A DNA stretch of 64,000 bases from Caryophanales bacterium (GTDB taxonomy: Bacteria > Bacillota_I > Bacilli_A > RF39 > UBA660). This document shows, in pieces, positions 17,844 through 60,946 of the stretch. A program made the translations under genes and the position numbers. The notes under the pieces are model-generated. The model made no database searches and had not been told where the DNA came from. It worked only from the letters and a program-made list of their open reading frames with translations. Every line of letters starts with the position of its first letter. Position 1 is the first letter of the stretch. The DNA is taken from positions 1-64,000 of the forward strand of contig JAEEJY010000010.1 in NCBI GenBank assembly GCA_016282155.1. The letters are read 5' to 3'.

Positions 17844-17920
17844 TGGGGCGCGATGTGGGAATCGAACCCACGCATAACGGAACCACAATCCGCCGTGTTA
17901 ACCACTTCACCAATCACGCC
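17844..17920 (-). tRNA. tRNA-His (GTG)
   Basis: Complete 77-nt cloverleaf. The anticodon loop is TTGTGGT with anticodon GTG. The acceptor stem has the His-specific extra G-1 paired with C73 (GGCGTGAT with ATCGCGCC), the T arm is GTGGG-TTCGATT-CCCAC, and the 3' CCA is encoded. It follows tRNA-Leu on the same strand. Confidence 0.96.
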
Positions 17921-17997: not shown

Positions 17998-18082
17998 TGG
18001 TACCGGTAGTCGGACTCGAACCGACACGGGATAACCCACTTGATTTTGAGTCAAGCATGACTACCAATTCCATCATACCGGC
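17998..18082 (-). tRNA. tRNA-Leu (CAA)
   Basis: 85-nt class II tRNA with anticodon stem-loop CTTGA-CTCAAAA-TCAAG (anticodon CAA, reads TTG), long variable arm (TGGGTTATCCCG), T arm GTCGG-TTCGAGT-CCGAC, discriminator A73 and encoded CCA. The first acceptor pair is G1-U72 rather than G1-C72. A TATAAT box lies just upstream at about 18094-18099. Confidence 0.95.
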
Positions 18083-23856: not shown

Positions 23857-23872
23857 AAGGGTCTTTGCCCTT
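23857..23872 (-). terminator. Terminator of the FIST-aldehyde dehydrogenase operon
   Basis: Stem AAGGG/CCCTT with a 6-base loop followed by TTTTT on the minus strand at the end of the dehydrogenase gene. Confidence 0.7.
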
Positions 23873-25307
23873 AATCTAATACATTTTTTATTACTATAGT
23901 CTTGGTTCTTGATAATTCTTTTAAGGTAGTTGCTATACCTTCATTACCAATACCACTATATTTCCATCCTCCGAAAGGCATTTCAGCTGAACGGAAGAAA
24001 CTTGCACCATTAATTACTGCTCCACCACATTCGAGAGCGTAAGCAACTTTGAATGCTTTTTTCATATTTTCACTTATTACACAACCACATAACCCAAATT
24101 GGGATTGGTTAGCTATCTCTATAGCTTCATCAATATCATCGAATCCAATAACCGGGATAACCGGACCAAAGATTTCCATGTCTTTTGCGACATCCATATC
24201 TCTAGTTACATTATCTAAAATTGTAGGTTCATAGAAGGCACCATTTCTTTTACCTCCTATAACAATATTTGCTCCTTCTTTAACAGTATTGTTTACTTGC
24301 TCTTCTACCTTAATAGCAGCATTTTCATTTATTAAACAACCTATTTCTGTTTCAGGATCAGAAGGCATCCCCTGTTTCATACTTTTAATTTTTTCAACCA
24401 TACGGTCGATAAATTCTTGCTTACGGGAATTATGAATTAGGAAACGTTTACTTGCACAACATACTTGCCCTGTGTTGTAAAGTCTACCCCAAACTGTTTC
24501 TTCAACAGCTTTATCCATGTCTCCATCTTCTAACATAATGAAGGCATCATTTCCTCCTAATTCAAGCATAACATGAGTTAAATTATTACTACATGTTCCC
24601 ATTGTTTGAATACCGGCAGCAGTACTTCCGGTTAAACTTACACAATGTACTAGAGGATGTGCAGCAAGAGCTTGTCCTACTACTTTTCCATCTCCATGAA
24701 GTACATTTACTACACCAGCAGGCACACCTGCTTTTATTAATAATTCTCCATATCTCGAAAGAGTTAATGGATTATATGTAGATGGTTTTATAATTACCGC
24801 ATTACCCATTATAAGTGCGGAAGGTACTTTTTGCCCAAACAAATCGCAAGGGAAATTGAAAGGTATTATTGTGGCCACTACTCCTAATGGCTCCTGTACA
24901 GTATATTGAACCGTTTTTTCTTGCCCTGGTTCAATTCCAGCAGGAATATTTATACCATACATATGCTTTGCCCTTTCTACATATCCATGGACAAATATCT
25001 TCGTATTCCCAATTTCCGCGATTGCTTCTTTTATGGGTTTACCTGTTTCGTCAGATAAAAGTCTAGCTAAACTCTCTTTATTTTCTTCAACTAGATCAGC
25101 GAACTTATATAATATGTCGCCCCTTTCATGCATAGGCATTTTTGCCCATGCTTTTTGTGCTTCATGTGCTACTTTTACACATGCATCAACATCTTCTACT
25201 GTTGAATTTGGCACTGTATCGATTAATTCTCCGGTTGCTGGATTTATAACTTCTGTTGTGGCGCCATTACTAGCGTCTTTCCATTCTTTACCAATTAAAT
25301 TTCTCAT
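23871..25307 (-). CDS. NAD(P)-dependent aldehyde dehydrogenase
   Basis: 478 aa ALDH superfamily enzyme. It shows IIPFNFPCDLFGQKV (oxyanion Asn), the cofactor-contacting VIIKPSTYNP, SLTGSTAAG, general base Glu249 in LELGGND, nucleophile Cys283 in GQVCCASKR, and the C-terminal EMPFGGWKYSGIGNEG. The overall sequence is near the succinate-semialdehyde, lactaldehyde and GapN-type branch, so the aldehyde is uncertain. Two bases separate it from the FIST gene upstream. Codon third positions look somewhat richer in G/C than in flanking genes, which could mean a later arrival. Confidence 0.9.
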   Translation of the reverse strand: MRNLIGKEWKDASNGATTEVINPATGELIDTVPNSTVEDVDACVKVAHEAQKAWAKMPMHERGDILYKFADLVEENKESLARLLSDETGKPIKEAIAEIGNTKIFVHGYVERAKHMYGINIPAGIEPGQEKTVQYTVQEPLGVVATIIPFNFPCDLFGQKVPSALIMGNAVIIKPSTYNPLTLSRYGELLIKAGVPAGVVNVLHGDGKVVGQALAAHPLVHCVSLTGSTAAGIQTMGTCSNNLTHVMLELGGNDAFIMLEDGDMDKAVEETVWGRLYNTGQVCCASKRFLIHNSRKQEFIDRMVEKIKSMKQGMPSDPETEIGCLINENAAIKVEEQVNNTVKEGANIVIGGKRNGAFYEPTILDNVTRDMDVAKDMEIFGPVIPVIGFDDIDEAIEIANQSQFGLCGCVISENMKKAFKVAYALECGGAVINGASFFRSAEMPFGGWKYSGIGNEGIATTLKELSRTKTIVIKNVLD

Positions 25308-25309
25308 AA

Positions 25310-26479
25310 CTATTTTTCAAATCCTGTAAAGGATAACATTAAACCTCCACATGAATTTCTTGAGTGTTCATTATATCCATATTCACCAAAAGTAAATATA
25401 GTTATAAATGGTACACCATTAGCTTCCTTGACTAAGTTTTTATGAACTTCTTCAAGTCTATCGCCAATTCCTATTTTACGTCCACCACAGTGAACAAAGA
25501 AATATGCAGCCGGATTGTCCATTTTTTTATTTAAATCCTTTAATGTATCTTTAGTGGCATCGATTAGACCATCTATTGAGGATTCCATTTGGATAATAGC
25601 AGTATTCTCTACTACTTTGTTACCAACACTAATTGTGTTGTCTTCGTTACCATTCATAGGGTGACGAATTAAAGTTAAATCTCCTATAGGATCTTTAACA
25701 CCTAACGGCATTGTGATGCTAGCTGTTAAAAGATTCATTCCATATAAATCTTTAACATTTTGGTTTGTCCATTCAGCATACTTTTTAAGTGCTGGGACAC
25801 CATCGATTTCAACTATTTTTCTATCCCCTTCTACCTTAGTTACTATACCAACATTCTCACTTTCCTTGTAAGCGCCAGTATATACTGTTTTGATATCTTC
25901 GGGACATTCAGTAAAGAAGAATGCTACTGCTACACCATCTGAAAAACATTTGTCATCACAAAATATTTTCCATTCGCCCGCTAATGTATCATCAGCAGCT
26001 GATCCTCCAAAGAAAGGTACATCTCCGATAACATCTTGGATACCTTTTACATAGTATTCCTCCTCTTTAGGTGATGCTACCATATAATAGTATGATGGAG
26101 CATAACCTGCACCTATTTTTTCTAAGGCTTCTTGAGCTACCTTTCGCCCAGTTTCTCTAGCTCCCCCTTTTTGAAGTTCGCTAGCAGCAACGCTAACTTC
26201 TAGATCATTATCTTCTAGAGTTAGCATTCCTGCAAATCCATTCTCAGAACTTATTATTCCATCAGGGACAATTATTTTTTCTGAGGATGTACATCCGATA
26301 ACAGGAATATCTCCCATTTCAGACTTAATTCCTTTTATTACTTCTTTTTGGTTATATTTAACCGAAGTATATAACATTCCGATTTTTGGGTTTTTTACAC
26401 TTTTTTTTGCTTTTTTTCCTGTCTCGACACCAGCCTCAAAAGCAGAAATCTGTGTACTATAACTTACATTAGATTTCAT
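25310..26479 (-). CDS. FIST-domain sensor-like protein
   Basis: 389 aa. FIST_N (about residues 30-220, including IPVIGCTSSEKI, VPFFGGSAADD and SDGVAVAFF) is followed by FIST_C (about 230-375, including ITMPLGVKDP and FVHCGGRKIGIGDRLEEV, ending GEYGYNEHSRNSCGGLMLSF). FIST domains are proposed ligand sensors for small molecules such as amino acids. No output domain is attached, unusual for signalling use; the partner is the aldehyde dehydrogenase two bases downstream. An AGGAGGG site precedes the ATG. The large structured RNA region lies immediately upstream on the same strand with no terminator seen between. Confidence 0.88.
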   Translation of the reverse strand: MKSNVSYSTQISAFEAGVETGKKAKKSVKNPKIGMLYTSVKYNQKEVIKGIKSEMGDIPVIGCTSSEKIIVPDGIISSENGFAGMLTLEDNDLEVSVAASELQKGGARETGRKVAQEALEKIGAGYAPSYYYMVASPKEEEYYVKGIQDVIGDVPFFGGSAADDTLAGEWKIFCDDKCFSDGVAVAFFFTECPEDIKTVYTGAYKESENVGIVTKVEGDRKIVEIDGVPALKKYAEWTNQNVKDLYGMNLLTASITMPLGVKDPIGDLTLIRHPMNGNEDNTISVGNKVVENTAIIQMESSIDGLIDATKDTLKDLNKKMDNPAAYFFVHCGGRKIGIGDRLEEVHKNLVKEANGVPFITIFTFGEYGYNEHSRNSCGGLMLSFTGFEK

Positions 26480-26524: not shown

Positions 26525-27366
26525 ATCTAACTATTCTGAAAATTTAAAATTCTTAAATTTTTAGATTAGTTAATAGTTCTTTCAAGAATATATTATTATC
26601 TACTTTCCCCTTTTTCTCACTACAATCACACATTTTTTTGGGATTCAAATAATATATTCTTAAACCCTCATTGGGTATTTATTATTAATTATAATGAATG
26701 CACTCTGAATAATAAGTCTCTAATTCATTATTATACTAACCATACCGGCACGGTTATTATGACGTCTAATAACCATACTATTTTTTGCCCCAAATAGTAA
26801 TCTTTTTCGTACCAATACTTTATAGCATTATTACTTATTCAATTTTTTATTCTTTTATTTTTTTAAATTTAATTTTCTATTTAATTAATCCTACGTCATT
26901 TCGGTCTCATATTCTTTATTTGAGTTGTATTTTAATGATGCCTATATAGAAGTCGCTATATAACATTATTAAATTACTTATTAATGATCAAGAAATCAAT
27001 TAAAGTATATAGATATAATTACCATATATTCCCAGACGTTTAATCGGTATATATTCCTTCAACTTTATAATCATGAGAATATATTACCTATTTAGTGCAC
27101 ATATAAATAGACAGATACTAATCAATAATTATTCTAAAAAACAGATAATTGACATTTCTCAATACTATACCCATCTCTAAGATTTAATAAATTCATCATT
27201 AGCTTTCCTATTTACATAAGTACTCTTTGGTACTTAAAACTTCGACTATCGTCTACTAACCAATCCTATATATCTTAGTTTCCTATAAATATATAGGACT
27301 CAAATAGTTGCCTCAACTAAGGTCTTACTTTAGCTATCAACTCTTATGCTTTACTGCCCTCCTTCT
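26525..27366 (-). ncRNA. Candidate large structured non-coding RNA (class unidentified)
   Basis: This gene-free stretch has no coding frame but is dense in helices. Perfect or near-perfect stems in plus-strand positions are: 26529-26535/26572-26578 enclosing 26539-26546/26554-26561; 26584-26597/26648-26661 (14 bp); 26691-26699/26723-26731; 26752-26759/26767-26774; 26777-26783/26792-26798; 26943-26949/26956-26962; 27046-27056/27077-27088 (one bulge); 27088-27094/27104-27110; 27217-27223/27230-27236; 27264-27273/27289-27298; 27306-27310/27338-27342. A TTGCTA-16-TATAAT promoter begins minus-strand transcription near 27366. It could be a free RNA or a leader of the FIST gene. Size and ornateness recall OLE, ROOL and GOLLD RNAs, but I cannot assign a class. 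Confidence 0.7.
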
Positions 27367-27372
27367 AGTTTA

Positions 27373-27400
27373 ATTATAACATCGCCAAATCGCTTAGCAA
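27373..27400 (-). promoter_or_regulatory. Promoter of the large structured RNA
   Basis: Minus strand TTGCTA at 27395-27400, 16-base spacer, TATAAT at 27373-27378; predicted start near 27366. Confidence 0.65.
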
Positions 27401-27839: not shown

Positions 27840-27868
27840 CTCCTTCCGCCATGACTTTTATAAGTCAT
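27840..27868 (-). promoter_or_regulatory. Leader hairpin next to the rpmE ribosome site
   Basis: 7-bp stem ATGACTT/AAGTCAT (27851-27857/27862-27868) with loop TTAT lies directly before the GGAAGGAG site, in the only ~55-nt leader. Possible L31 autoregulatory element; ribosomal-protein leaders for L31 are known in Bacillota, but I have not matched this one to a model. Confidence 0.5.
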
Positions 27869-27887
27869 AGTAACTTTTTGCTCCTAT

Positions 27888-60846: not shown

Positions 60847-60852
60847 ATCTTT

Positions 60853-60923
60853 GCACAACATTTATGCTTGAACCAGGTCAGATCTGGAAGGAAGCAGCCT
60901 TAAAGGTCTCTAAATGTGTGTGC
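60853..60923 (+). ncRNA. ffs: Signal recognition particle 4.5S-type RNA
   Basis: Small bacterial SRP RNA. The terminal stem pairs GCACAACATTTA with TAAATGTGTGTGC. The conserved apical helix-8 motif is CCAGGTCAG...GGAAGGAAGCAGCC, the Ffh-binding symmetric and asymmetric loops. T run follows as terminator. It lies between gyrA and tadA, near dnaX as in Bacillus (scr). Confidence 0.94.
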
Positions 60924-60946
60924 TTTTTTGTTTTTGAGGTGATAAT

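Follow-up and report, generated by a model that had tools for sequence, protein, structure and literature searches.

What is encoded in a stretch of 0.84 kb that separates the genes of ribosomal protein L31 and of a FIST-domain sensor protein, but holds no gene itself? The stretch is part of the 64,000 nucleotides analyzed here (the window), which come from a 1.17-Mb MAG (G000). The genes around it are all located on the minus strand in the order MurA, Bax1-I membrane protein, L31 (27625 to 27852), gene-free stretch, FIST (25310 to 26479; PF08495 and PF10442), aldehyde dehydrogenase (ALDH; 23871 to 25307; PF00171), and RpiB. Between L31 and FIST, no open reading frame (ORF) of at least 60 amino acids was found, in agreement with a preliminary description that had seen no coding frame in the interval 26525 to 27366. 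Very probably, the product of the stretch is a large folded RNA from a class that has not been catalogued before. Two observations support this: relatives have changed the sequence but kept the base pairs, and an even clearer 1-kb RNA occupies the same place in a related genus. The candidate RNA (26525 to 27366, minus strand) is supported by the lack of an ORF, conservation of its promoter and 5' end, the presence of a homologue in each of the two other genomes from the genus, and covariation. Its 5' end lies near 27366; the 3' end is not set by the sequence and falls somewhere between 26584 and 26480.

Gene neighborhood and searches against known families

In most other genera, coding genes are found upstream of FIST, often that of an iron-type alcohol dehydrogenase; in many genera, this enzyme and an aldehyde dehydrogenase flank FIST, which suggests that FIST is the sensor in an alcohol/aldehyde cluster. 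A decayed alcohol dehydrogenase gene was considered as the origin of the stretch and rejected, as no remnant was detected in the interval. In one other genome (G055, locus L096), the region upstream of FIST contains two near-identical tandem antisense ORFs, which by eye resemble small helix-turn-helix proteins. On the other side of the stretch, an intrinsic terminator of L31 (27522 to 27559, minus strand; -18.4 kcal/mol, z = -6.4, followed by U7) is positioned upstream of the RNA promoter and would isolate the RNA unit from L31.

A scan of the interval with Rfam 15 on both strands gave nothing at gathering scores and, below these, only chance matches up to E = 10, and the same holds for the homologues in the two other genomes of the genus (G001 and G002). 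The scan includes OLE, ROOL, GOLLD, HEARO, raiA, tmRNA, RNase P, and group I/II introns, the families against which the preliminary description had proposed to check the interval, and none of them appeared at E values of 10 or less in the interval or in either homologue. That description had left open whether the RNA belongs to a known large-RNA class or to a new one; the absence of any Rfam family match, together with the compensatory changes in the 3' domain described below, supports a new class. Elsewhere in the window, the scan located the L31-Firmicutes ribosomal protein leader expected before rpmE (27840 to 27870, minus strand), a small SRP RNA gene (60847 to 60929, plus strand), and two tRNA genes (17847 to 17919 and 18001 to 18082, minus strand).

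Promoter, 5' end, and strand

The previously noted TTGCTA-16-TATAAT promoter is present on the minus strand at positions 27400 to 27373, with the -35 box TTGCTA at 27395 to 27400 and an extended (TG) -10 box TATAAT at 27373 to 27378. The promoter scan returned 13 promoter-like sites versus 10.4 expected by chance, a count that is uninformative by itself; the site in question is the best of the 13 (10 of 12 matches) and is kept in position in both relatives. The -10 region TATAATTAAACTAGAAGGAGGRCAG is conserved with G002 and, among 145 family genomes, is restricted to the window and G002. Seven to eight nucleotides past the -10 box follows the conserved 5' end AGAAGGAGGGCAG (27354 to 27366), for which the same layout is seen as ATAGTAAGGAGGTATACAG in genus g34. 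The promoter sequence is thus observed, and transcription from it is inferred: a sigma-A-type promoter belonging to the RNA itself would drive minus-strand transcription, starting near 27366.

The 5' end carries the Shine-Dalgarno (SD)-like motif AAGGAGG, but no start codon is found at SD distance behind AGAAGGAGGGCAG in the window. A frame read by eye in G001 and G002, TTG-GTN-AAR-stop (MVK), was rejected as a start behind the motif, as nothing comparable lies at SD distance in the window. In these two genomes (L192, 957 to 1000, and L034, 3215 to 3255), the TTG-Val-Lys-stop frames show only synonymous differences; they are absent from the window and possibly due to chance. The motif GGGRAAAGTAGATA was also looked for in other genera, where every occurrence lies within an ORF. 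STAB-SD elements are SD-like sequences in the 5' region of transcripts that have no obvious coding role. By analogy only, the AAGGAGG of the window, being without a start codon, resembles the 5' stabilizing SD elements of Bacillus mRNAs such as the STAB-SD leaders of cry genes (PMC4113751); a difference from the latter is that part of the AAGGAGG motif in g34 is predicted to be paired.

The folding energy of the interval was lower than that of dinucleotide shuffles for both the minus strand (-181 versus -154, z = -4.6) and the plus strand (-140 versus -108, z = -6.2). Since AT palindromes fold on either strand, this measure cannot choose between the strands, and it was dismissed as proof of strand or of function. 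The strand of the RNA is the minus strand, as chosen by the promoter, the direction of the genes, and the conserved loops.

Conserved hairpins and compensatory changes within the genus

The genus of the window (g1) is represented by three genomes only (window, G001, and G002), all of them MAGs. In both of the other genomes, a homologue is located immediately upstream of FIST; the synteny is therefore observed throughout the sampled genus. In G002, a MAG from roe deer, a gene-free stretch of 0.8 kb with the same TATAATTAAACTAGAAGGAGGRCAG start precedes FIST (L034), and its 3' part contains two copies of a module that is also present in the window. The shared layout comprises a 14-bp stem, RAAUYCC, an apical loop, GGGRAAAGUAGAU, and the closing strand. 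In the window, this 3' domain (26584 to 26661, minus strand) consists of the 14-bp stem, an internal loop UGAA / AAGUAGAU, a 4-bp inner stem, and the conserved apical loop. When the three copies (window and two from G002) were aligned, 98% of the cells paired and 11 of the 18 pairs showed two-sided changes. Shuffles gave 3.8 such pairs, and slid registers no more than 5. For this alignment (A4), the apical loop of the first G002 copy was shortened by hand, the window copy and the second copy remaining unedited. Addition of G001 left the number of pairs with two-sided changes at 11 of 18, with 94% pairing; here (alignment A8), one unpaired U was omitted from two rows and one A was dropped from the apical loop of the second copy to keep the register. 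The preliminary description would have been refuted by pairs drifting without compensation, and for the 3' domain the outcome was the opposite.

A covariance model (R1) built from the window copy and the two G002 copies was searched in 386 family genomes. It blindly recovered the third genome of the genus, G001, with an E value of 1.2e-6 per genome, or about 5e-4 after correction for the number of genomes searched (E values of the model are rough), and this match sits in the same order as in the window, i.e., L31, RNA, FIST, ALDH. Apart from the source genomes and G001, there was no credible match in the 386 genomes, the next ones (E = 0.015 to 0.1) being located within ORFs. Those weak matches of models R1 and R2 in other genera whose surroundings were read were discarded, as they fall within ORFs or at ORF starts (two loci, L206 and L207, remained unresolved), and model R3 retrieved the window alone from 296 genomes of the class.

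Outside short conserved blocks, the g1 sequences differ greatly. The RNA of the window has diverged furthest; no confident alignment was obtained for its 5' half, and the three whole RNAs were too dissimilar for RNAalifold. G001 and G002 have in common the blocks AGAAGGAGGACAGATAGATTGG, loop AAACUGCGAGUA, ACGUCAAGACCNAAUGGUACGG, loop CGACUU, and UAUUUGGGC, embedded in diverged sequence. The stem of loop AAACUGCGAGUA reads CUGAUC/GAUCAG in one of these genomes and CUAGUC/GACUAG in the other, corresponding to two compensated pairs. In the window, the CGACUU loop is found in a hairpin at 26943 to 26962, whose stem is unlike that of both relatives in sequence with pairing kept, and a hairpin with a UUUGGGGCA loop (26776 to 26799) resembles the UAUUUGGGC hairpin of the relatives; all of these features are on the minus strand. 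The G/C-rich patch that had been placed in a loop or junction near 26784 to 26791 turned out to be the GGGGCAAA loop, and two pairs named earlier, 26584-26597/26648-26661 and 26752-26759/26767-26774, are both exact. The latter pair forms an 8-bp hairpin (26752 to 26774) with the self-complementary loop GACGUC (26760 to 26765), for which a role as a kissing loop is possible, as inferred without interaction data; symmetric kissing loops between chains occur in large RNA complexes (PMC12286853). This loop is the only feature of the window RNA that would hint at a homo-oligomer or RNP assembly. Between the 3' domain and FIST, a 20-nt AT-rich inverted repeat (26528 to 26572) lacks a U-tract, and a counterpart in the relatives was not seen.

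These data bear on the possibility that there is no functional RNA at all, and that AT-rich intergenic DNA or a decayed gene contains palindromes folding by chance. The GC content of 23%, the good folding on both strands, and the fact that the iron-type alcohol dehydrogenase preceding FIST in other genera is missing here would fit such an explanation. It is nevertheless very improbable in view of the lack of a dehydrogenase remnant, the compensatory changes and conserved loops, and the blind recovery of the third homologue, and for the 3' domain it is already refuted.

A 1-kb RNA gene in genus g34

Among about 37 FIST-bearing family genomes sampled, a gene-free stretch of this kind was present only in genera g1 and g34. 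In one g34 genome (G035), it spans 1.2 kb before FIST, and with this DNA as the query, 13 of 15 g34 genomes matched (G035 included; E = 3e-45 or better). The RNA gene of these 13 genomes (L216 to L228) has a length of 1.0 to 1.1 kb, e.g., L218:1396-2470 on the minus strand, and is mostly located beside FIST. All 13 loci contain ATAGTAAGGAGG or ATAGTAGGAGG at the 5' end, directly behind a TATACT/TATAAT box wherever the contig extends that far. From an alignment of 11 of the 13 loci, RNAalifold predicted 198 pairs (covariation term, -22 kcal/mol); 95.6% of the cells pair, and two-sided changes occur in 83 of the 198 pairs, whereas shuffles gave 45 such pairs and slid registers no more than 29. 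The unslid register is favored because a single alignment served both to derive the fold and to count the pairs; despite this, the two-sided changes are well outside both controls. Covariation thus supports the structure of an entire RNA in g34 only, and that of the 3' domain in the window RNA.

The g34 RNA is ended before FIST by a terminator hairpin with two-sided changes in five of its eight pairs. The terminator scan detected it in L221 and left it unflagged in L226, where another terminator-like hairpin comes after it. As read by eye, two genomes have other genes between the RNA and FIST, and in one genome an nrdD-like gene follows the RNA. Rfam gave no meaningful match in G035 and none up to E = 0.1 in the 12 other g34 homologues. 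The g34 RNA resembles a transcription unit of its own that ends in a terminator. It is a finding in its own right, namely a highly conserved gene for a structured RNA that has a promoter and a terminator but no Rfam match.

Are the RNAs of the two genera one class?

The g1 and g34 RNAs agree in their position before FIST, in their similar size, and in the AAGGAGG 5' end right after the promoter. Sequence comparison provided no link: blastn and nhmmer searches between them gave nothing significant (best nhmmer E value, 0.16), and a g34-type core was not found in the three g1 genomes by a search sensitive to close similarity only. It is a serious possibility that two unrelated large RNAs precede FIST by chance, in which case the g34 terminator would be uninformative for the window. 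This would explain the lack of both sequence similarity and a g34-type core; it would leave the shared position, the similar size, the unusual AAGGAGG 5' end behind the -10 box, and the confinement of such stretches to these two genera to coincidence. We regard kinship of the two RNAs, inferred from position, size, and 5' end, as the probable alternative.

Trans-acting RNA or cis-acting leader

The looks of the g34 RNA as an independent terminated unit point to action in trans. For the window, this reading is borrowed only by position, size, and 5' end, since the g1 and g34 RNAs have no detectable similarity. No terminator was seen between the RNA and FIST in genus g1, so that the g1 RNA may run into FIST and a long cis-acting 5' leader becomes the main rival. 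Such a leader would sense, e.g., a metabolite of the aldehyde pathway and control translation of FIST-ALDH or elongation into these genes. The RNA is indeed directly upstream of FIST in all three g1 genomes, with the 3' domain ending 22 to 105 nt ahead of the FIST start codon. However, a leader of 840 nt would be very long, neither a terminator/antiterminator nor a sequestered ribosome-binding site was seen, and the g34 RNA is terminated before FIST and sometimes does not adjoin it. We consider a cis-acting leader rather unlikely.

On balance, we lean slightly toward the view that the interval is an RNA gene whose large, structured product belongs to a class absent from Rfam, is encoded on the minus strand with its own promoter, and probably acts in trans; transcription, processing, and trans action are inferences. 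The folded transcript would consist of successive hairpins, their loops conserved, and of the conserved 3' domain. In g1, it may continue into FIST-ALDH and the RNA may then be cut out, such processing being inferred. Its most likely role would be that of a trans-acting structural RNA or scaffold of an RNP, as for the other large ornate RNAs.

Comparison with known large RNAs

OLE, ROOL, and GOLLD are the best-studied large RNAs; their structures were solved only in 2025, and their functions are still largely open. OLE RNA (RF01071) is, like the candidate, a large structured RNA of Bacillota, but has a length of about 600 nt as compared to 0.84 kb, and the window RNA does not match its model. 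A further parallel is that OLE RNA is tied to alcohol stress (PMC10898510) and the window RNA precedes an aldehyde dehydrogenase operon. ROOL is similar in size range, in its gut and rumen hosts, and in having several hairpins with conserved loops; it is found in phages and prophages, in many cases close to tRNAs (PMC12286853), whereas the window RNA has a fixed chromosomal site, no ROOL match, and no BLAST match in 50,697 phage records. A plasmid BLAST search was likewise without a match. Searches of viral contigs for motif patterns gave 52 matches to the 3' motif, none with a convincing flanking stem, a single match to a g34 motif, which was judged to be chance, and no match to two 5' motifs. 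GOLLD shares with the window RNA a size near 800 nt and a conserved 3' region combined with a less conserved 5' region (PMC12286853), but the window RNA has no GOLLD match and no tRNA island. The raiA-motif RNA, also a structured RNA of Bacillota, was not matched either. The size, the several hairpins with conserved loops, and the Bacillota host would be compatible with a strongly diverged member of OLE, ROOL, or GOLLD past the reach of Rfam models; given the Rfam results for the window, its two g1 homologues, and all 13 g34 homologues, this is improbable.

Bacterial RNAs of such size and complexity are few. We tentatively propose, without considering the case made, a fast-evolving new class of trans-acting RNA of 0.7 to 1.1 kb that has so far been seen in two genera, both from a single family of uncultured Bacilli with small genomes, is linked to the FIST sensor gene, and has its own RNA-protein or RNA-only assembly. 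With 13 g34 homologues, a fold backed by covariation, and a promoter as well as a terminator, the candidate class is ready for synthesis, probing, and cryo-EM. Its recurrent place beside the gene of the small-molecule sensor FIST represents a first functional lead.
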